From Mugil cephalus (Eukaryota; Chordata; Actinopteri; Mugiliformes; Mugilidae), in contig NC_061789.1 of assembly GCF_022458985.1 (NCBI RefSeq), forward strand, positions 7,916,357-7,980,356: a stretch of DNA of 64,000 bases. The letters are read 5' to 3'. The translations under genes and the position numbers were made by a program. Below are positions 12,162 through 53,268 of this stretch, one piece after another. Every line of letters starts with the position of its first letter. The stretch's first letter is position 1. The notes below the pieces were generated by a model that saw only the letters and a program-made list of their open reading frames with translations, was not told the DNA's origin and did not search any database.

Positions 12162-15100
12162 CTAATACCTTTCACACGTGTTTGGTAGAGTCACAAGCCA
12201 TCCATCCACGCGCATGCATTTACATTCAATACTACTTAAGTAGAACGCTTTGAGTTGAGATGTCCCTTCATACCTGATGAAGATATTCTTCGATTCATTA
12301 GCAGGGATCACTTTGCTGAACCGTGGATCGGGCCTGGTATCATACAGGTTGACCATGATGACTTGAATTGGCTGGCACAAACAGTTGAAAATGCAAACAC
12401 AGTTTATTTTAAAAAGCAACAACTGCTGTATTTCTCCATAGCGGCCATCTTCCAGTTTAATAAAACAGTCAGTTTGGTTTGACTCTTTACAGCTGGCAGA
12501 GTGGTAAACCGTGTTTCTGAAAATGAAGCTGTCAAAGGCTTCTAATGATCCGATGCAAACTGGTTGTCCTAAGAGTTCTTCTATCGCTAGTTCGAAGGAT
12601 TCTGTGATATCCACATGGTATGATTGCCCAAGAGGTTTGAAAGAGCGACTGCCTTCATTTACTGGTGAGAGTTTAGCTAATAACTCCCCAAAATCAGTAT
12701 CTTTGTTGAACACCAAAGAGTCGAGGTGTCTCGGTATGTACTGCCAAAAGATGAACCTCTGGTAAATTTGTTTATAGTCGAAATCAACGCCCTTAAACAG
12801 AGACCTTAAATTTCCATTGTTAATTTCAAACCTGAAAGCTGATGTTGCCCAAAGAGGCCCCCAGTTACGTACACTCTCAGTTAGATGGATTAACTGATGA
12901 CAGTTGAAAGTCACGTTTTCTTCACCGTAAAGTTCTTCCATCTTAACTACAAAGCGTTTTAAGTAGTTATGAGCCAGCTCAAGGTCTTGCTGGGATATTG
13001 ATTCTTGGAGCAGAATGTGAATGCTAAATGACAAATGGAAATAATGGTCCAGAAATGAAGCATGCAGGATACCTGGCAGAACACTAATAGAATGAAATAG
13101 AAGGAACGCTCGCCACTGTGATGCTTTCCAAGACTCCCAACACTTCAGTGACCACGGACGTCTGCCCAGTTCTAATGTTGGTTTTAGACTGAGAAGTCGG
13201 GAGTCCATCTGTGAAACCTTGTGACCTATATACCACGGTTTCTCAGAGTTTCCTTCTTCCAGCCACAGAGACATGAGTTGTTTGGTCACACCAACTAGAA
13301 CTGAATGCATGTACTCAGGGACAAATCCAAACACAATGTCAAAAAAGGGAAGCTTGGAAAGAACAGAGCCTCCTTTGACTCCATACGTTTGCAGAGAGCT
13401 CGCAGAGTTTCCAGATTGCCTTGCATGCTCCTGAAACATTGACTTTGACCTTGGTGCTTGTTTCCTTTCATCGTATGTGTACGACCTCATGTGTCCACTG
13501 CCCTTTTTGACCATTGTGCCAGGATGTAAACACCAGTCACAACCATATTCTCCATTGAACTTCTTGCAGTTCCTGAGAAGAGGCCTCGCCTCAGCATCAG
13601 AGGAGCAAACCAAGGAGAAGACTTTTGAATTGCGAATTGTGCCACTACTGTCTCTCCACTGGAGTGGATTTTGAGCTAGATCACGACATTCATGAATGAA
13701 AGGATTCAGGAATGTATTAATCGTAGGGGGGGTTGGGCCAAACCAAAGACCTGCAACTACTACATTTTCCCACCTTAGTTCGTATGGAAGTTCATTAATA
13801 GTAAATTGAAGGGCCCAAACTGAGTATTTTGATAAATAATCGTTGTTTGAAATGTTTAGGCCATCACAATTCCATGTCAGTGTGATGTCATCTGCTGCCA
13901 GCGTACCATTTTTAATCAGATTCTGGTACATTGACCCATCCATGACATCCCTAATGTGATCACTGGATTTGACAGTTTTAGTTATCAACTTATCGCCATG
14001 CATCTCAAGGATGTTTTTCAGAAGGTCTTTCAAGGAAACAGAGAAAAAGAACCTTCCATTTCGAATGTTGCCTGCATCATTGAACACTTCGTTGCAGTGT
14101 GAACAAGAAGCAACATGCTTTTTTCCAAAGTAATTTTGAGAGGATGGACAGCAAAACACCGTAGACACTTTTGGAATGTTGTCGGTAAGACACTGGGATT
14201 CAACGAGGTCAGGGACAAGCAAATTAGGGACAAGAAAATTCAGCAAAGCCATTAAGCTATTTTGCGCTGCAGTTAGGCGATGATGCAGAATGCAGAGTAT
14301 AGTAGCAAGTAGGCCTTGTCTTCGAGTTACTGGAGCACCAGGGTAAATTGGATCCTCGCTCTGGAAAGACAAAATATTAACATTTGTAACAAACTGATTT
14401 CAAGTCAATGTTGTACACTATCGTTGCATGAGTTTTACTCGACCTACATGAGTGCGGGATGATTCTTCTCATTCATCTTTTAGCAAAAAAAGTGGATAAG
14501 TGTGTTTCTAAAAATACTGAGCTACTCACATTTGTGATAACAGAAGCAACCATTTCCTGGTTTTCCTCTTGGTCAGAATCTATGACCATTTCCTGGTTTT
14601 CCTCTTGGTCAGGATCTATGACCATTTCCTGGTTTTCCTCTTGGTGTGAAGTTGCGGCCATTATTTGAGGAGTGGTCTGCATTGAAGTACATGCACAAAT
14701 GTAAGACTTGCAGCACTGGAGACTCAGGAAAATATACTGAAATAAGTGTGGCCAGCATCTTAATATCTATTCAGATATACGTGATGTCAAATGTATCGTT
14801 TCAGTTTTTATTTGTTCTTTGTAACTCAACTTTTCATAGCTGTCTATATATATTCATAGCATTACTTATCACGCAACACATATTTTGAGAAGCAATGTGT
14901 CATTACTTAGGACAATAGGTATCCACTTATGTATTTCAAACAAACAAAAGAAATAGGTAGGTTCAGACAAAAGTCCAAGGTTGACAAAATAAAACAAAAC
15001 ATAAAATAAAATAAAAAAAAGTTGCGTGTGGCAAAGATCACAGGCAAGTGATAATTAAAACTGGATTAATATCAGACCCAGTGCTATTTACTTAGTAATA

Positions 15101-15418
15101 TTTATTTTATTTTATAATAATTATTCCCCTTTTTTTTTATCTTCACAGTGCAGAACATTACCTTTAACAGCTCGAGTTCCTTCTTTAATTTTTCTCTTGG
15201 TCCCACTATTGGGATCAAGTTGTCAATGTCTTGATCGTCAAGATAATACAGAGTTTCCTCATCAACACCTTGTTCTGTAAATAAAAAAAGCAATTAGAGT
15301 GGTAGTATCAGCTGACTGTGTTGCCAACAAGCATATATAGTGATACTTTACCTCTAAATGTATGAATCAACTCTCTCAGATCCCATTCTTCTAGTTGGTT
15401 ACAAACAGAATCATCCAT
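12162..15418 (-). CDS. predicted SAM-domain / EnSpm-CACTA transposase fusion
   Basis: Four minus-strand exons join in phase to 841 aa: 15352-15418, 15162-15274, 14530-14676, 12162-14360. Residues 1-60 form a SAM domain closely related to those of the neighbouring GTPases (MDDSVCNQLEEW..., LIPIVGPREKLK). Residues 61-109 contain three 12-residue units of DQEENQEMVID type. Residues 110-841 are an unbroken transposase of EnSpm/CACTA type. Its visible marks are the NCDG motif near residue 275, a CDWC cysteine pair, the MHSVLVGVTKQL segment, and a DUF4218-like region (HQLIHLTESVRNWGPLWATSAF). The three internal junctions have GT-AG borders, and the middle acceptor is ATGCAG followed by ACC. The transposase ORF and its two-exon structure are seen directly. 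The join to the SAM exons is inferred from phase and proximity. Alternatively, the transposase starts at the ATG at 14661 and the SAM exons are a separate remnant. Function is unknown; the protein could be DNA-binding and domesticated. Confidence 0.6.
14534..14650 (-). repeat. 36-base tandem repeat (three units) in the linker exon
   Basis: Three nearly identical 36-base units encode 12-residue repeats of DQEENQEMVID plus one variable residue. They form the acidic, glutamine-rich spacer between the SAM exons and the transposase. The first unit begins HQEENQ and the last ends EMVAS before the splice donor at 14529. Close identity of the units points to recent expansion or homogenisation. Confidence 0.8.
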
Positions 15419-15537
15419 GACCAAGAACAGCAGCTGAAAATGTAAATAGTTAACAAATCAATATTTATTATTATTATATATTATGAATATTATAGGTTAT
15501 TTATGATCAATTCAGATTACACATTTTAACAGTTCAC

Positions 15538-15900
15538 CTGGTTTTAAAGGTCCCACAGGCAGGAGCAGGTAAGTGTTGAAAACTTCAGGTCGAAAACAGA
15601 GCAGGATAGTCCTTAAGCGTCAACAGGAAGCCAAAAACAGTCAGGTTAAAGAATGTTAGAATGTTATTCCCTGGTTTGGAGATGAAGAGGAGTTGAATCT
15701 GTACATATAGAGGAAATAGTGAACAGAAGAGCAGGGCGTATGGAGAATCAGCTGATCTAAACAGGGCTTTAGGCCAGGAGGTGGTGGCTTCATCCCATAT
15801 GACACAGGAGTAAGTGTGCATGACAAGAGCGAGCAGTAAAAATGAATGACTGAGTTAATAAAATGAGATAAGATCATTCTTTTCTTATCTCAAGATCGGC
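15538..15900 (-). promoter_or_regulatory. noncoding first exon and upstream flank of the SAM-transposase gene
   Basis: On the minus strand a donor (CAG then GTGAAC) lies at 15538, about 120 bases before the SAM exon. It sits where copies 2, 3 and 4 of the GTPase array have a 5'UTR donor. The sequence from about 15660 to 15860 (GAGATGAAGAGGAGTTGAAT, then the CAGGAGGTGGTGGCTTCATC region) matches the flank at 29757-29940 upstream of copy 1. This shows shared descent of the two 5' ends. Confidence 0.5.
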
Positions 15901-17261: not shown

Positions 17262-17790
17262 GCAGTATAAGGTGTGGGTGTTCACCTCAAGTCAAACCAC
17301 TGATCACAACAGTTTTATTGCGATCGCTCTTGTCCTCATCTTTCAAGTTACTGAGTTTGGAATTCACTGCTTCAGAGAATAAGTACACAGTAATAAAACT
17401 GAACGTATAAACTAATTATAAACATTCAGACCGAAAAACTAGTTGAAACATATCCTAATGAAGTCCATGCCCATTTATAATTCGGTGTACTGCTTTGTTT
17501 TAGGAAACCTACATTTCAGTTAAAGAAATAAGCAATAGACATACACAAGGACGGAAAAATGGTTTGTTTCCATCTTAGTTTTCTACATTTCTGATATAAA
17601 CACCCATAGAAATATTTATTTTTCTGTGAGCGAAAATTTTTAATTAAAGGTCATTTTCTCAAACCCCTAGAGTTCATGTCAAATCAAACTCAAAATGTTC
17701 TTATTCAAAGGTCAAATCACAGAAATTGCAGAGCTCTACTCTCTCAGTATTGAATAATCCTCATTATAATTGTCAATAGAGCTGTTTTGT
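17262..17790. repeat. paralogous segment matching 31100-31580
   Basis: GTTCACCTCAAGTCAAACCACTGAT and AAATCAAACTCAAAATGTTC align in order with 31105-31130 and about 31512-31530. Both are spaced along similar AT-rich DNA, and the second block ends just before the 3' end of array copy 2. The 15.1-17.8 kb region is therefore a diverged duplicate of 29.2-31.6 kb. No gene is seen inside. Confidence 0.6.
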
Positions 17791-28800: not shown

Positions 28801-29669
28801 CACACCACTATACACCAAAACCACCCACCGCAAAGACAGTTTCTGTCACTGGGCCGTCTCTCTGACGATCTCTGAGCCGTCGCAGAGTGTGAGACCATTC
28901 ACATGATCAATAACTACATTAAATGTACATACTCTCTCTATATTTTTAAATTTTTAAATTTCTAAAGTCTAATTTATGCTGTACAGTGTAACTTTTTACA
29001 CTTTTACACTTATTTACGTTCTGTGTTTTGTGGTGACTAAAGTGACCGGAGTCAAATTCACAAAAATGTGCACAAATACTTGGCCAATAAAGTTGATACT
29101 GATTGTGATTCTGAAGGATCGATCAATTCAAGTAAAAGCCCGGCAGCTGTATTTTAGGATCTTTTTGCTTGTAGATGCCATTTTATTTTGTTCTTTTGTA
29201 ACAACAGCTGTCCGTATGAGACCAATTGCAAATATTTGCAACGTGTCATAGCGCAGAACATTACCTTTAAGAGCTTGAGTTCCCTCTTGAATTTCGCTCT
29301 TGGTCCCACTTTTGGGATCAAGTCCCTAATTTCTTGATCCTCAAGATAAAACAGAGTTTCCTTATCAATACCTTGTTCTGTAAAAAAAAATAAAAAATAA
29401 AAAAATAGCAATTAGAATGGAAGTATCAGCTGTACACATACAAAGCCTATAAGAACTTGTAAGCACTGATCTCTCCCAAAACAGCTTCACTACAATTTGC
29501 CAGTGTTGTACTGCAGAAAAATTATGTTTATTCCTATAGATTAGTAAATGTTATGTTTCAGTGTTGCCAACAAGCCAACAAGCATGTATAGTCATACTTT
29601 ACCTTTAAATGTATCGATCCACTCTTTCAAACCCCATTCATTTAGTTTGGTACAAACGAAATCATCCAT
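21775..29669 (-). CDS. SLIP-GC-like large GTPase, array copy 1 (794 aa)
   Basis: Twenty exons join in phase: 29603-29669, 29265-29377, 28079-28108, 27743-27767, 27473-27556, 27275-27365, 26826-27042, 26096-26323, 25624-25830, 25341-25510, 24584-24677, 24423-24513, 24152-24273, 23743-23916, 23507-23661, 23277-23394, 22579-22687, 22302-22435, 21939-22020, 21775-21848. Residues 1-60 form a SAM domain. The P-loop GKTGAGKS is at about 155-162, the G3 motif DLPG starts at Asp 337, and G4 is TKSD. An acidic loop lies between P-loop and G3, and a mostly helical C-terminus follows. Family knowledge: SLIP-GC/NUGGC are nuclear dynamin-like GTPases of immune cells. Oddities: the 15-codon linker exon seen in copies 2 and 3 is missing, the next exon uses an acceptor shifted by 9 bases, exon 17 needs the unusual donor GTTAGT, and the basic KRQR segment has decayed to SPTKQQ. 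Confidence 0.83.
22495..22545. mobile_element. decayed copy of the palindromic MITE
   Basis: TACACTACCAATCATTCAAT and GACTGGTAGTGTA form imperfect inverted ends, related to the element at 19788-19867. It lies in an intron of GTPase copy 1. Confidence 0.6.
22746..23100. mobile_element. MITE-like element with an internal (TA)n microsatellite
   Basis: GTGTTTACATGCACAG on the left and CATGTAAACATAC near 23089-23101 on the right are inverted. TTACATG/CATGTAA-flanked elements of this type are common in fish. A related stretch (TAATCGGACTATAAC, GCATGTAAACACG) lies at about 58650-58700. The interior carries about 26 TA units at 22836-22888. Confidence 0.45.
22836..22888. repeat. (TA)n microsatellite
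   Basis: Pure TA dinucleotide tract of about 53 bases in an intron of GTPase copy 1. Confidence 0.95.
28530..29110 (+). mobile_element. degraded LINE 3' fragment
   Basis: The plus strand carries a short decayed reverse-transcriptase-like run (RFVLSPLLLFSLNT). It also has the tail CTTGGCCAATAAAGTTGATACTGATTGTGAT, typical of fish non-LTR elements. The fragment separates the SAM exons of GTPase copy 1 from the rest of the gene and may have removed the linker exon present in copies 2 and 3. Confidence 0.5.
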
Positions 29670-32098
29670 GACCAAAAACAGCAGCTGAAAATATAAATGG
29701 TTAACAAATCAATATTTAATTATCATGAATGTTTAATACGAATAATTACTGGTTACTGGAGATGAAGAGGAGTTGAATCTGTACATAGACATTGGTCAGG
29801 AAATAGTGAACAGAGGAACAGGGCGCATGGAGAATCAGCTGATCTAAACAGACAGGGCGGGCTTTAGGGCAGGAGGTACTGGCTTCATCCCACATAACGC
29901 AGGAGTAAGTGTGCATGGCAAGAACAAGCAGTAAAAATTAATGACTGATTTAATAAAATGCGATAAGATAATCCTTTATTTACTGAGTGGCTGCTGCAGG
30001 CCACCCACCCTGGATGACACCTTTGCTTTCATCTTCTTATGTACTCCAATAAGTACTAACCTTTTTCAAAAATGTATTACTTCTTTTAAAAGCCCAGAGT
30101 TCATATCAAGTCAAGCCAAGTATCTATCCTGTCAGCCAACTCATAAAATAAAAAGATGACAATATAGTTTTAAATATAGCCCAATAAATACAGCCCAATA
30201 GATCCAATGCTATTTACTCAGTAATAATTATTTTCCAACTCAGCACTTTAATGCCAGCTTTTATAGTGAATATGCCACACACAACATGGTTCCCAATGTT
30301 GGAATGAATAGAATGAAACACATATACATACCTTAGAGTAATGTCAAGACAGATAAGATCGGAAATGCGCAATACATAGCACACGCTGTGCACTCAGCAA
30401 AGAATGGGAGCAGGATAAAACAAAAATCCACAGTTGTCAAAAGCCCTCTACAGAGTACAGGTGAAGTACAGTAATCAGGTAAGTTCTCAGATGAAATGAA
30501 ACTTGGAAACTCATTGACTATGTATGAAAGGAACGGGAACAGGTGAGCACATTGAGGGCGGAGCAGGAAACTAAATAAGAGGGATCAAAACCAGCGGGCA
30601 TTCAGTGGTTATTGATTAATATGAAGGGCACTGGACTATGGTCATAATGCTATGGCTGTTTTTGTTTTTTTTCAAATCCAACAAATCTATGTAAAACAAA
30701 TGCATACGTGGTTATCTAGACGAAGAGACAAACCTTAACCTTCTTGCCGAACACAACACTTTCACTTTCTTTTCACTTTCCACGTGCTTAACTTTGCAGT
30801 AAATTTACTACATCTGAGAATAATTAGAATTCATACTGTAATAGTTGGTGATATAATCTGTATTCTCTGTTTCTACAGTCAAAACCGAGGTGAATGACAC
30901 TTTTAAAGACCTTTTACAAAAGAAAAATGTTACATTTTTTCTATCTTGGAATCAGAACAGATGCTAGGAACAATCTTAAGTCCCTTTGTAAAGAAATACT
31001 GTCATGGTTGATTCACTTACGTTTCACATTGCGTGCCTTACGTGCTCCCCTTTTTATATTTTCTCCGTAATTGTTGGTTGATGTACACTTTCTATTGTGT
31101 GTGTGTTCGCCTGAACTCAAACCACTGATAGTTTTGTTCTGTCTCTCTCCAAAGTTTTGTTGTGATTGCTTTAATCCTCATATTTCATAGTTTATTTCAT
31201 AGATAAATACACAGTAATAAAGCTCAACTTATGAAGTAATTATAAACAATTATACGGAAATGGATCCTAATGAAGTCCACGGCCATTTATAATTTATAGT
31301 TGTGAAAATCATATATGGTCGTTTTGTGAAGTCATATGAAATTATGTTATATTAAGTTTATATTTAGAACTAGTTCAGATAAGACAAAACAAGTAAGAAG
31401 CCATTGGTGTATTTATGACCTTTATTTCTCTGCATTTCTCATAAGACATTTATTTTTTCCAAATAATTGTCGAAGAATTTTAATTTAAGGCCATTTTCAC
31501 AAAATCCTACGGATCATCTCAAATCAAACTAGTAATGATCTTATTCAAAGGACAAATCACAGAAACTGCAAAGCTAATATAATTAAAACATACAGTAGTG
31601 CAAATGTGTGTGTGTGTGTAATGAAAACTTAAACTGTTAACATGAAAATATGAAAATATTACTGGGACATTATTGTGGGGACATTGTGCTGTGACGCATT
31701 TCAATCTGACCAGGAACCTTTGCATTTCATCCCTGTCCTTTTTCGATACTACAGGCAACATGTCCTAAGAAAAAATGTAAAAATCCCTCCCTCCACATGA
31801 AATTCAAAAAACAAAATCAAATCACACATCAGAAATCAAGAAAACACAGGTAATAAACTGACAACAATGGATCAGGCCAAAATCCAGAGGCCTCTTGTCT
31901 TTAGTCATCTTTCCCTTTTGGATGTTCAGACAGTGACCAGGCTTCTGCTCCACACAGAACGAATATGAAACATCTCCTGGAGAAACAAACAACATACGTA
32001 TCGTGTCAGCGATTAAAATGACTGTTAATGACATTGACAACAAAACTGTTCATAACCAAACAACATAACATTGATATTTTATCAAATATTTTACCTGA
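29670..32098. other. intergenic region between GTPase copies 1 and 2
   Basis: Contains the upstream flank of copy 1 (an IRF-like array at 30758) and the 3' flank of copy 2. In copy 2 the conserved last exon of the family, near 31880-31985, is untranslated because the stop falls in the preceding exon. No other gene is seen. Confidence 0.5.
30758..30781 (-). promoter_or_regulatory. IRF/ISRE-like array upstream of GTPase copy 1
   Basis: Minus strand GGAAAGTGAAAAGAAAGTGA with further GAAAGT gives three to four GAAA units at short spacing. It lies about 1.1 kb upstream of the copy 1 start codon. The same neighbourhood (GAGACAAACCTTAA, CTTGC-GAACACA) recurs at about 55050-55100, but the GAAA units are lost there. 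Regulation by interferon regulatory factors is inferred from the motif only. Confidence 0.5.
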
Positions 32099-38000: not shown

Positions 38001-40958
38001 ATGAGAATTATGTGATTATGAGTTGCTCGTATGTTGCTCAGTCATGATGATGTTTGATTGTCTTTGAGTGTTGAAAGTATAAGAGAGTAAATGCAGAAGT
38101 ACATTTTGGGATTTTCACATTGGACACAGACTGTGCCAGACTTAGCCACCTCTTATGTGGCGCTATTTTGAAATTCTGAAAAAGTTCTGTCTGCCAGCAC
38201 CGTTTAGTGGGTGAAGTGTACAGTGCCCATTTTCTGTATCTGGACTACTACTTGGATTTTGTACTGAGTCAAGGAGACTTACTGGATCAGAGTGAGGATT
38301 TTTTCCCAGAAACGACTGAAACAATGTTTACTGGGGACTTCCTTACTCACCACCAACTGGCTTCGGCAGCAACAGATCGGGTGTGGCTGCATTGGCCATG
38401 TGGCTCACTCGACTCCCTTCCCCAAAGGATTTTGAACAGAATTGGATATTTTCCCCCCTCTACCCAGACAGCTCATAAGTAATATTTTCTATCTGAATTT
38501 GAACAATTTTAATGATTCTTGACAAATAGTGAGGGTCTGCTGGAAATGCTTGCCAGAAGAGCCTGTCAAGATGGTCTTCAATTCCGACCTCCAACAGAGC
38601 TTCAACCATGTCCCAGCGGCAGTGGGGGACATTGAATGGGCCAAGTTCCTGTTTCGAGTTGTAGTTGCAAGGTCGCTGGTGCTGGTCGTGGCGGTAACCC
38701 GCTGGTGGACAACAGAGGTGAGGGGAGCTGTCAAGCTGAAGAAGGAGGTCTACAGGGCATGGTTCCAGGGTTTCCGGAATGTGTTGACCGGTACCGGAGT
38801 GTGCCGCAGCTGAGGCAGTCGCTGAGGCAAAGACTCAGGCGTGGGAGGAGTTTGGTGAGGCTATGGAAGAAGACTATCACTCGGCTCCGAAAAAAGTTCT
38901 GGCAAACCGTCCAGCACCTCAGGGGCAGTAGGCGACAACACGGCCACCTCGTTTTTGGTGGGGAGTTGCTGACATCACCCGGGGCTGTTCGGCGGTGGAA
39001 GGAATACTTTGAGGAGTTTGTCTATTCCACCAACACATATTCCACAGTGGAAACAGAGCCAGAGGGCCTGGGGCTGGGCAGTCCAGTCTCTGGGGTCAAA
39101 GTCACTGAGGTAGTGAAACAACTCCTCGTTGGTGGAGCACCAGGAGAGGATGAGTATCTTAAGGCTCTGGATTTTGTAGGGCTGTCCTGGTTGACAGACC
39201 TCTGCAATGTTGCGTGGGCATCAGGGGCAGTGTCTTTGGGGTGGCAGACCGGGTTGGTCGTCCCCATCTTTAAGAAAGGGGACCAGAGGGTGTGTTCCAA
39301 CTATAGGGGGGTCACTCTCCACAGGCTCCCCCGGAAAGTCTACGCTAAGGTGCACGAAAAGAGGGTCTGATCAATAGCTGAACCTCAGATTGAGGATGGG
39401 TGTGGAACCATGGACCAACTGTTTACCTTCACTTGGGTGCTGGAGGGGAGATGGGAGCCCAATCAGCCCACATGTGTTTTGTGGATTTGGAGAAGGCCTA
39501 CGACCATGTCCCCAGAGGCATCCTGTGTCAATTTACCGGTCGATCTACGTTCCAACCCTCACCTATGGTCATGAACTTTGGGTAATGACCAAAAGAACAA
39601 GATCGCAGATACAAGCGGCCGAAATCGTTTCCTTCACAGGGTGGCTGGATTCCTCCTTAGAGATAGGGTAAGGAGCTCAATCACGCAGGAGGAGCTCAGA
39701 GTAGAACTGCTTCTCCTCTGTGTCGAGAGAAGTCAGTTGAGATGGTTTGGGCATCTGGTAAGGACACCTCCCATTAGAGGTGTTTTGGGCATGTCACACC
39801 AGAAGTAGGCCTTGGGGTTGCCCCAGGACACGATGGAGGGATTATATCTGTCATCTGGCCTGAGAGCACCTGGGGATTTGCCCCGCGACCTGGACCCGGA
39901 TAAACGGAAAACGATGACCACCATGATGATTGATTTTTGAGTCAATATGATTTTTTTCTGGGATGTAACAACACATAGGTTTGAAATCAAATTCAGGACA
40001 AGTTCTCAATAGTGTCTGGGAGGTTGAGTGCAGCAAATGGCTCAAAACTGATCACATTCATCATCCTTGTTCGTAAGTAAACAACAGTAAATAATTTTCC
40101 AGGGGAAGACGACTTTATCACAGGACACTTAAGTGACTCAAATGCACACATGCACAAGGATTAAACTGTAATGTTCACTTATTACATGTCTATAAATTCA
40201 ATATCCTTACCTGAAGCAACTCTGCTTCTTCTTCAGGCTCCTGTTTACACTGCAGATAAAATACTCTAAGTTCAAGGTCATGAACAACTTTGAGTAGACA
40301 CTGACAATATAACCTCTATCATAGATGATACATTCAGCATGAAACTGTATCTTACTTACTTGAACAGAGACATCATTTGTTTCCTGAGTTGTGCTTTGTT
40401 GTTCCTAATGACAAAAAGAACATATATATGTGTGTCCGTGTGTTTGTTCACTTACACCAGCATGAATCCATATTCACAGAGTAAAACATTACCTTTAATG
40501 ATTTGACTCTCTTCTTAAATTTTGTTCGTGGCCCAATTTTTGTGATCAATTTATAAAGATCTTTATCTTCAATATCACAGAAACTTTCTTCATCAATCTC
40601 TTCCTCTGTAATAAAGACATACAGTATTTAGTTCAAAGTTGTCTTCCAGAAACAAGAATTACTATCTATTGCAGAATGTAATTTAATGACAATTTCTTTT
40701 TGTTTTACGAAAAAAGTCTGTTGTTTTTGCAGATGTTTTACTGTAAGTGTTTTGATACTCTCTGTAGAGAGATGAGACAAGAGAAGTGGCAGAATTTGTC
40801 TGCAGATTAGAAGAAGTTGTTTCAGTTTGAGTAAATCATCTGAATACTCTATAGTGTCTGTGTCCCACCAGTATGAGTGTTAATACTTTACCTTTAAATC
40901 TGTCGATCCACTTGCTCAGACCCCATTCAGTTAGTTTGTTACGAACAAAATCATCCAT
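32099..40958 (-). CDS. SLIP-GC-like large GTPase, array copy 2 (813 aa, G3 Asp replaced)
   Basis: Twenty-one exons join in phase: 40892-40958, 40493-40605, 40360-40404, 40211-40249, 37660-37684, 37463-37540, 37274-37367, 36500-36716, 36129-36383, 35557-35763, 35305-35480, 34500-34587, 34297-34384, 34076-34191, 33614-33787, 33378-33532, 33141-33255, 32837-32945, 32611-32735, 32272-32353, 32099-32172. Residues 1-60 form a SAM domain, followed by the linker and the basic segment SPAKRQRG. The P-loop GRTGAGKS is at 172-179, with an acidic Asp-rich loop in the exon at 36129. G3 reads VNLPG rather than VDLPG (Asn at about 363), and G4 is TKSD. Loss of the Mg-coordinating G3 Asp predicts weak or absent GTP hydrolysis while nucleotide binding may persist. 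This is known for the Asp-to-Asn class in other GTPases and inferred here. A LINE fragment sits between exons 4 and 5. Confidence 0.85.
36272..36317 (-). repeat. GAT/ATC trinucleotide tract in coding exon of copy 2
   Basis: Imperfect ATC repeats on the plus strand encode a poly-Asp run in the GTPase-domain loop of copy 2. Equivalent tracts of different length lie at about 49735-49790 (copy 3) and 60090-60115 (copy 4). Confidence 0.8.
38500..39940 (+). mobile_element. internally deleted non-LTR retrotransposon (LINE) fragment
   Basis: Plus-strand frames carry reverse-transcriptase segments typical of a common teleost LINE: GLSWLTDLCNVAW, VVPIFKKGDQRVCSNYRGVT and MCFVDLEKAYDHVPRG. The catalytic YADD core is absent. 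At about 39528 the sequence jumps directly to the C-terminal part (YVPTLTYGHELWV, ERSQLRWFGHL). Frame breaks are frequent, so it is dead. The tail near 39880-39915 (GACCTGGACCCGGATAAACGG) is the usual 3' end of this group. Family assignment (L2/Rex1-like) is uncertain. It lies in the intron between the SAM/linker exons and the GTPase exons of copy 2. Confidence 0.8.
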
Positions 40959-52300: not shown

Positions 52301-53268
52301 CTTATTGGTCAGTAAACAACAGTCAATAATTACCCACGGGAGGACGACTTCGGCATGGGACACAAATGCATGTGTATAAAGATTAAAGCAATGTTATTTG
52401 CTTATTACACGTCCATAAAATCACTGTCGTCCTTACCCCAGGCAACTCGGCTTCTTCTTCTTCAGGCTCCTGTTTACACTGCAGATAAAATATTCTAAGT
52501 TCAAGGTCATGAACAACTTTGAGACGATCCTGACATCCATCATAGAACATGTATAATCAGCATTAAAAACTGTATTGAACTTACTTGAACAGAGAAATAA
52601 TCTCTTTCCTGGGTTGCTTTTAGTTTTCCCTAATGACCAGAAAATATCAACATGTCTGTTATATATAAATAGAGAAATATATGTATTGTAATGTTTTATT
52701 TGTGGATATCAGATTTATCTACCATTTCTTCACTTGCACCAGAGGCCAAATGTATAAATTGTCTTCACAACATTACCTTTAATAGTTTGAATCTCTTCTT
52801 AAATTTTGCCCGTGGTCCAGACTTTGGAATCAAGTGTTTAAGTTCTTGGATATCAAGACAATAGAAACTTTCCTCGTCGATGTATTCATCTGTTATAAAG
52901 ACAAATATTTATAATATTTAATATAGACAAAAAGGTTTCATAAGAGCAATTAATCATACTAAACATCACAGAGCTAATTAGTGGTTGAATGTGTTGAACA
53001 TATGTTCATTCTCTTGTATTTTGTATTTTCTGTTCTGTTATGCAGATGTTTTACTGCAAGTGTTTTTATTCTCTCTGTTCACAGACGAGAGACGTGTCAG
53101 AATCTGTCTATAGATTAGTAGAAGTTGTGTTTCAGTTTGAGTAAATCATGTGAATATTTCATAGCGTCTGAGTCCCACCAGTATGAGTGTTAATACTTTA
53201 CCTTTAAATCTATCAATCCACTCGCTCAGACCCCATTCAGTTAGTTTGTTACGAACAAAATCATCCAT
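43916..53268 (-). CDS. SLIP-GC-like large GTPase, array copy 3 (838 aa)
   Basis: Twenty-two exons join in phase: 53202-53268, 52777-52889, 52585-52629, 52437-52478, 50656-50680, 50445-50531, 50256-50349, 49920-50136, 49589-49852, 47824-48030, 47530-47705, 47077-47170, 46890-46971, 46589-46710, 45776-45949, 45531-45685, 45268-45385, 44939-45047, 44712-44845, 44259-44340, 44081-44149, 43916-43956. Residues 1-60 form a SAM domain, followed by an acidic linker and a putative nuclear signal (PPAKRQRD). The P-loop GRSGAGKS is at 176-183, and the acidic exon (264 bases) has a poly-Asp/Glu run. G3 is DLPG with Asp at about 370, and G4 is TKSD. The C-terminus is long, charged and probably helical. It is the only copy that reads through into the terminal exon, adding about 14 residues. 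A Tc1-like relic occupies the intron between exons 4 and 5. Of the array members it is the most complete. Confidence 0.86.
46020..46480 (+). mobile_element. interspersed repeat related to 18355-18799, partial
   Basis: T-rich unit with CCTGATTAGTTTCATCTATG, GTTGTCATTAAATACTTTTTG and CCTGCACTTGGGTTC, the landmarks of the same dispersed teleost element. It lies in the intron between two C-terminal-half exons of copy 3 and carries no valid coding frame. Confidence 0.6.
49290..49324. repeat. (CA)n microsatellite
   Basis: Pure AC dinucleotide tract in the intron between the acidic exon and the G3 exon of copy 3. Confidence 0.95.
50900..52230 (-). mobile_element. degraded Tc1-like DNA transposon
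   Basis: Minus-strand pieces of a Tc1/mariner transposase appear in several frames: GGSSIMVWGCMSATGVG and the end motif MSPVENLWWIIKRSV. On the plus strand the reverse complement AACCATGATACTGCTTCCACC is diagnostic. Frame breaks show it is dead. Terminal repeats were not resolved, so the ends are approximate. It separates the SAM and linker exons of copy 3 from its GTPase exons. Confidence 0.8.

Follow-up and report, generated by a model that had tools for sequence, protein, structure and literature searches.

A predicted grey mullet copy of an old percomorph SAM-transposase fusion gene, with a SAM domain likely replaced from neighbouring GTPase genes

The window analysed here, a 64,000-nucleotide (nt) stretch of the grey mullet genome (Mugil cephalus, C20:7,916,357-7,980,356), holds a predicted gene in which two exons for a SAM domain are joined through a linker exon to a transposase. 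A first-pass annotation had described four exons with GT-AG joints and a total length divisible by three, and the model bears this out: four minus-strand exons of 67, 113, 147 and 2199 nt add up to 2526 nt and encode 841 amino acids (aa) before a single terminal stop, with GT donors and AG acceptors throughout. The exons, in order of transcription, are these.

15352..15418, minus strand: SAM exon 1, 67 nt, with ATG start and GT donor; 80.6% identity to exon 1 of the SLIP-GC-like GTPase copy A (29603-29669)
15162..15274, minus strand: SAM exon 2, 113 nt, with a phase-0 donor; 85.8% identity to exon 2 of copy A (29265-29377)
14530..14676, minus strand: linker exon, 147 nt, acidic, with a 36-nt repeat in three units; alternative ATG at 14661
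12162..14360, minus strand: large exon, a 732-aa transposase of Tnp2/CMC type, with stop

The product would consist of a SAM domain of 60 aa, an acidic linker of 49 aa and a transposase-like part of 732 aa. When exons 1 and 2 are translated, the window SAM passes the Pfam cut-offs for SAM_1 (24.5 bits, cut-off 23) and SAM_2 (20.7 bits, cut-off 20.5), and its exon lengths of 67 and 113 nt are identical to those of three GTPase copies within the window, as the annotation had claimed. The three-unit repeat that it had placed ahead of the transposase frame is likewise there, as 36-nt units spanning 14549-14656 of the linker exon. Because exon 3 is 147 nt long, SAM exon 2 would stay in frame even if it were joined straight to exon 4.

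A database search returned 55 matches, of which 26 are named fish proteins. Aligned with these relatives, the large exon contains the following features.

13863..13865, minus strand: putative catalytic D166, first D of the DDE triad; D in 53/53 non-gap rows (3 gaps) and in 25/25 fish
13596..13598, minus strand: putative catalytic D255, second D; D in 56/56 rows and in 26/26 fish
12825..12827, minus strand: putative catalytic E512; E in 53/53 non-gap rows (3 gaps) and in 24/24 fish
13530..13541, minus strand: C(2)C motif, C274-x2-C277; 26/26 fish
12885..12899, minus strand: H(3)H motif, H488-x3-H492; 25/25 and 24/24 fish
12669..14324, minus strand: predicted RAG1-like DDE core, residues 13-564
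12192..12647, minus strand: predicted BAH-fold C-terminal domain, residues 572-723

CMC transposases are marked by a DDE triad whose second D and E have C(2)C and H(3-4)H motifs lying between them, as defined in PMC12730594, and the window copy carries this signature. The triad and both motifs are invariant in the compared fish, in an alignment where 123 of 717 columns are; those columns and the 732-aa open frame bear indirectly on purifying selection in the transposase part. Since triad and zinc motif are kept, metal binding, and perhaps cutting, may still matter to this protein. The predicted fold of the core matches RAG1 and Transib, and the C-terminal end is predicted to resemble BAH domains; a Pfam scan of the C-terminus returned 0 families, so this part is BAH-like by predicted fold only. 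Folds absent from the fold-match lists were not taken as evidence. The same C-terminal domain is common to arthropod and metagenome relatives (hhalign probability 97). A BAH-like fold predicted at the C-terminus of CMC-type transposases (here 12192-12647, minus strand) and unflagged by Pfam is an observation in its own right, and its presence in arthropod and metagenome relatives raises the possibility that such transposons read chromatin.

The first-pass annotation had proposed looking in other fish for proteins with both a SAM domain and the same transposase, and such proteins exist: one or more SAM domains stand ahead of this transposase in 21 of the 26 named fish proteins, in two of them (P0006 and P0021) only partly. 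In these proteins, as in the window, host domain and transposase share one open frame across introns, in predicted gene models throughout. Two tandem SAMs are found in eleven fusion proteins (P0001, P0002, P0005, P0007-P0010, P0014, P0027, P0029 and P0038); in Perca P0005 the linker segment is repeated too. Five named proteins (P0011, P0017, P0018, P0032 and P0041) have no SAM, and one of them, Myripristis P0041, comes from just outside Percomorphaceae and is a 522-aa model without the C-terminal part. None of the 29 remaining matches carries a SAM, most of them being from short contigs unable to show an upstream exon, and among all 55 matches there is no mullet protein of the SAM-transposase gene. 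The species with a SAM-bearing fusion range over gobies (Gobiaria), perches, cichlids and silversides. The acceptor of the mullet large exon (S-E-D-P) falls where the N-termini of P0013, P0018, P0019 and P0026 switch from unrelated to shared sequence (T/I-E-E-P), and the second SAM of Siganus P0029 passes directly into the shared E-E-P point of the transposase, which suggests that the intron ahead of the large exon is conserved among fishes.

A transposase tree of 26 rows under a site-mixture model mainly follows fish taxonomy, with Channa and Lates loosely placed; it left out other unnamed and arthropod rows as well as the named fish proteins P0008 and P0038. The mullet transposase groups with Ovalentaria (Shimodaira-Hasegawa-like approximate likelihood ratio test, SH-aLRT, 92; not starred), in agreement with NCBI taxonomy. 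A first FastTree of 56 rows, fragments included, had put the mullet outside most percomorphs and was superseded by this better-model tree. One intact mullet copy and a gene tree that follows the species are what vertical inheritance, as opposed to a multicopy element, would leave. On the predicted models, then, the SAM-transposase fusion is an old percomorph gene and not new at the mullet locus. The proposal of a candidate new host-transposase fusion stands as to the fusion, which belongs to a family, and falls as to its novelty, given its occurrence in other fishes and the species-like tree. What is specific to the mullet, as far as the sequences indicate, is likely a replaced SAM and not the fusion itself.

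The origin of that SAM is bound up with the neighbours of the fusion, which are SLIP-GC-like GTPases with SAM. The relevant features in the window are these.

15143..15882, minus strand: stretch matching the 5' end of SLIP-GC copy A, comprising upstream DNA, the SAM exons, the ends of intron 1 and the first 19 nt of intron 2
29265..29669, minus strand: SAM exons of SLIP-GC-like GTPase copy A (P0056, Mugil cephalus), the nearest GTPase SAM in the window
40493..40958, minus strand: SAM exons of SLIP-GC copy B (P0102)
52777..53268, minus strand: SAM exons of SLIP-GC copy C (P0060)

The mullet proteins P0056, P0060 and P0102 carry SAMs identical letter for letter to those of copies A, C and B, respectively. 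A search with the window SAM alone (19 candidates) yielded nothing at E <= 1, and the SAM comparison was therefore built from the transposase matches and from SLIP-GC protein matches, the latter being the best 120 of 714; a full-length SAM, present in 19 of the 21 SAM-bearing fusion proteins, was what entered the tree. The tree comprises 132 SAMs. Those of the fusion proteins, 30 from 19 other fish, group in a single clade (support 0.99; 53/60 FastTree bootstraps) that contains none of the 101 GTPase SAMs, and the window SAM is placed among the SLIP-GC SAMs near copy A. On average the window SAM is 40% identical to the SAMs of fusion proteins and 55% identical to those of GTPases. Three blocks match copy A at 29977-29246 (15882-15671, 84% identity; 15499-15323, 84%; 15314-15143, 81%), and the similarity ends 19 nt inside intron 2. 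The SAM tree, together with the upstream DNA that matches copy A, leads us to infer that the mullet fusion SAM was likely replaced by one from the adjacent SLIP-GC-like GTPase genes, the family to which the first-pass annotation had already assigned it. No fusion-type SAM was found elsewhere in the mullet genome, in a search that short exons limit. A second upstream stretch, 17272-17735, is similar to 31097-31575 upstream of GTPase copy A, and the duplicated copy-A unit may therefore extend for some 2 kb more in the upstream direction.

All eight reported genome matches to SAM exon 2 of copy A, the window SAM included, lie on C20 at 7.93-8.04 Mb. The SLIP-GC-like array, which occupies 29154-64000 of the window and continues on C20 to about 8.04 Mb, holds at least seven SAM exon copies besides that of the fusion; six of these lie on the minus strand, and one, at C20:8036828, lies on the plus strand. 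A 244-aa open frame at 38636-39370 (plus strand) reads, by eye, like part of a retrotransposon reverse transcriptase. In other fishes, 13 of the 25 species with a placed fusion-family protein show a SLIP-GC protein among the 120 matches listed, and in 11 of these 13 the fusion and the SLIP-GC gene are on records of equal length, and hence most likely on the same chromosome; the exceptions are Stegastes and Astatotilapia, where the records differ and the fusion is on small scaffolds.

Alternatively, the gene may have been broken in the mullet only. The SAM exons would then be a truncated SLIP-GC duplicate left by rearrangement of the array, and translation of the transposase-derived protein would begin within the linker exon, from the ATG at 14661. 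We regard this as the less probable course of events, at perhaps one chance in a few, and as the strongest competitor. The window SAM is indeed a SLIP-GC-type copy, its ratio of nonsynonymous to synonymous change (dN/dS) is near 1 with changes at conserved SAM sites, the linker has no significant homology to other fishes, and the models of P0011, P0017 and P0018 in other fish also begin without SAM. When changes since copying are polarised, the window SAM has 14 replacements and 0 silent changes and copy A has 7 and 3, with 5 sites undecided; some of the window replacements fall at sites nearly fixed among the 131 other SAMs. A count of 0 silent in 14 is, however, uncommon under neutrality with the frame kept (P 0.026; one test, uncorrected). 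The SAM retains its frame, its start, its splice dinucleotides and the lengths of its two exons while the flanks hold indels, whereas simulated neutral change keeps start and frame in about 36-45% of cases at 12-15 changes, with indels and splice sites uncounted. Moreover, the window SAM occupies the place and phase of the ancestral SAM. Two further readings of these changes were set aside: selection judged from coding versus non-coding divergence (29/180 vs 9/115, P 0.049, non-coding changes counted by eye) was too weak, and convergence of the window SAM on the fusion type fails because few of its derived states agree with fusion SAMs.

The mullet genome, 634.8 Mb, has one reported intact copy of the transposase and six other places that are 27-43% identical to it with stops within each, the best candidates having been scored.

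C3:954721, C10:27741028, C14:3720320, C5:2435981, C1:52901836 and C1:52962860: decayed CMC-type relatives

At ten fossil loci, sequence reaching about 1.5 kb to either side of the transposase match gave no significant SAM match. Numerous copies that keep their terminal repeats, the outcome named in advance as fatal to a fusion gene, did not turn up: among the candidates scored, one copy is intact and six are broken. The proposed search for terminal repeats and target-site duplications came out mixed. Around the fusion no CACTA-type ends were found (best CACTA pair 7/15, best CACTG pair 11/15), and equal 3-bp flanks occurred in 0 of 34 CACTA/CACTG pairs, yet a perfect AT-rich 16-bp inverted pair, 11395-11410/15092-15107, encloses the transposase exons and is bordered by TAT at each outer edge; a 3-bp agreement of this kind has a local probability of about 3%. 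Such a pair arose in 3/300 local shuffles and in 36/300 random window placements, which are fairer controls than whole-segment shuffles (0/200). It does not extend inward (17/20 and 22/40 matching) and lacks the CA..TG ends given for CMC elements in the accessible part of PMC12730594; on these grounds, with its AT-richness and its frequency in random placements, we do not take it for transposon ends.

These data bear on whether the locus is an ordinary low-copy CMC transposon, carrying its own SAM or having landed next to a SAM remnant. All catalytic residues are kept and the inverted pair is perfect, as such an element might have them, and the equal TAT flanks led us to rate the idea somewhat higher than we otherwise would; it nevertheless seems improbable to us in view of the single intact copy, the tree that follows the species, the fossil loci without a significant SAM match and the properties of the pair just described. 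Slightly less probable still is that the SAM-transposase models of other fishes are prediction artefacts joining GTPase SAM exons to a nearby transposase remnant. The models do look automatic and both gene types share a chromosome, but artefactual joins would bring SLIP-GC SAMs, and no GTPase SAM in the tree falls within the clade of the fusion SAMs. The mullet transposase frame, moreover, runs open for 732 aa, and other percomorphs also have long ones.

We thus consider it probable that the locus represents, in the mullet, an old fish gene whose SAM exons are predicted to be spliced to a CACTA/CMC-type transposase with a predicted RAG1-like fold, and that its product is likely a SAM-tethered, DNA- and chromatin-binding nuclear factor that is not mobile; the transposase has likely been domesticated. 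A CMC transposon would have landed in or beside a SAM-bearing SLIP-GC GTPase gene of an early percomorph and then been captured through splicing onto the SAM exons, and the fusion gene would have stayed on the GTPase chromosome ever since. The SAM part may self-associate or pair with the SAMs of neighbouring GTPases, for which the shared SAM type offers a possible route. The predicted RNase-H-like core may bind certain DNA ends and might even have kept the ability to cut them, and nucleosomes may be what the BAH-like end recognises. Along the mullet lineage, the ancestral SAM would have disappeared and been succeeded by a cassette of GTPase promoter plus SAM that came from the array, with phase-0 introns on both sides letting the replacement join the transposase in frame. 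This view of function draws on anatomy and conservation, and the joined transcript, binding, cutting and partners are putative.

Several observations call for caution with this account. The joint between SAM exon 2 and exon 3 is predicted, without direct support, and the similarity of the linker exon to other fishes' linkers is not significant (at best 26/500 shuffles were as good, with 14 linkers tried). The replacement-only pattern in the window SAM could reflect either new function or decay, and the second SAM of Sander P0001 gave no family match in the Pfam scan where the window SAM passed. Pfam Transposase_21 stays below its cut-off on the window copy (18 bits vs 28.6), so the CACTA label given by the first-pass annotation holds by relatives, motifs and predicted fold and not by this profile; the profile passes in the relatives P0041 and P0046 and missed the other eight proteins scanned. 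A genome-wide search with Transposase_21 found no match anywhere, controls included, and is uninformative.

A bolder version is, in our estimation, a long shot. The gene could be a second domesticated RAG1-like recombinase in spiny-rayed fishes, a catalytically intact SAM-DDE-BAH protein within the SLIP-GC cluster that docks on GTPases via shared SAMs and, at defined places in the genome, cuts or marks the DNA; the mullet SAM exchange would then keep the partners matched. Interest in many known host-transposase fusions centres on a DNA-binding part that they retain. The present fusion retains every catalytic and zinc-motif residue tested in 24-26 fish, amid nuclear GTPases, and with these residues kept in such a setting the idea of a second RAG-like enzyme can be put to a concrete test. 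The mullet itself may be a natural domain-swap, in which the host domain of an old fusion was likely replaced by exon shuffling, and such a swap would show how fusion genes could change partners.

Host-transposase fusion (HTF) genes were reportedly set out by Cosby and colleagues. The gene described here is like them in that host-domain exons are spliced to a transposase exon and in being old, with one intact copy and, the 16-bp inverted pair aside, no recognised transposon ends. It differs in its SAM host part, in a CMC-type transposase with a full DDE triad and BAH-like end, and in the second replacement of the host domain that appears to have happened in one lineage. The comparison was also made via PMC8290160, which cites Cosby et al. 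2021. In their accessible parts, the papers on host-transposase fusions (PMC8290160, PMC8700633, PMC12062965), CACTA-type elements (PMC12730594, PMC1636069), fossils (PMC9004415) and SLIP-GC (PMC7316828, PMC4986275) leave a SAM-transposase gene unmentioned, and the titles and abstract openings of top-ranked papers, a set that most subscription journals fall outside, yielded no published description.

With the RAG1 and Transib recombinases the fish protein shares a predicted RAG1-like catalytic fold, whereas identity over the aligned core is 10-12% and cleavage activity is putative here. Animal CACTA/EnSpm (CMC) transposases are linked to it by the Transposase_21 matches in P0041 and P0046 and by the common C-terminal domain; the non-fish relatives found have no SAM, and the mullet gene, present as one intact copy, has no CMC ends that were recognised. 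Going by the title of Richter 2009, a reference in PMC7316828, the SLIP-GC namesake is linked to germinal-centre B cells. Finally, the fish SLIP-GC (NUGGC)-like nuclear GTPases have the same SAM exon pair, with the same lengths and phase and in the same cluster, yet in the window the SAM of the fusion is followed by transposase exons and not by GTPase exons.
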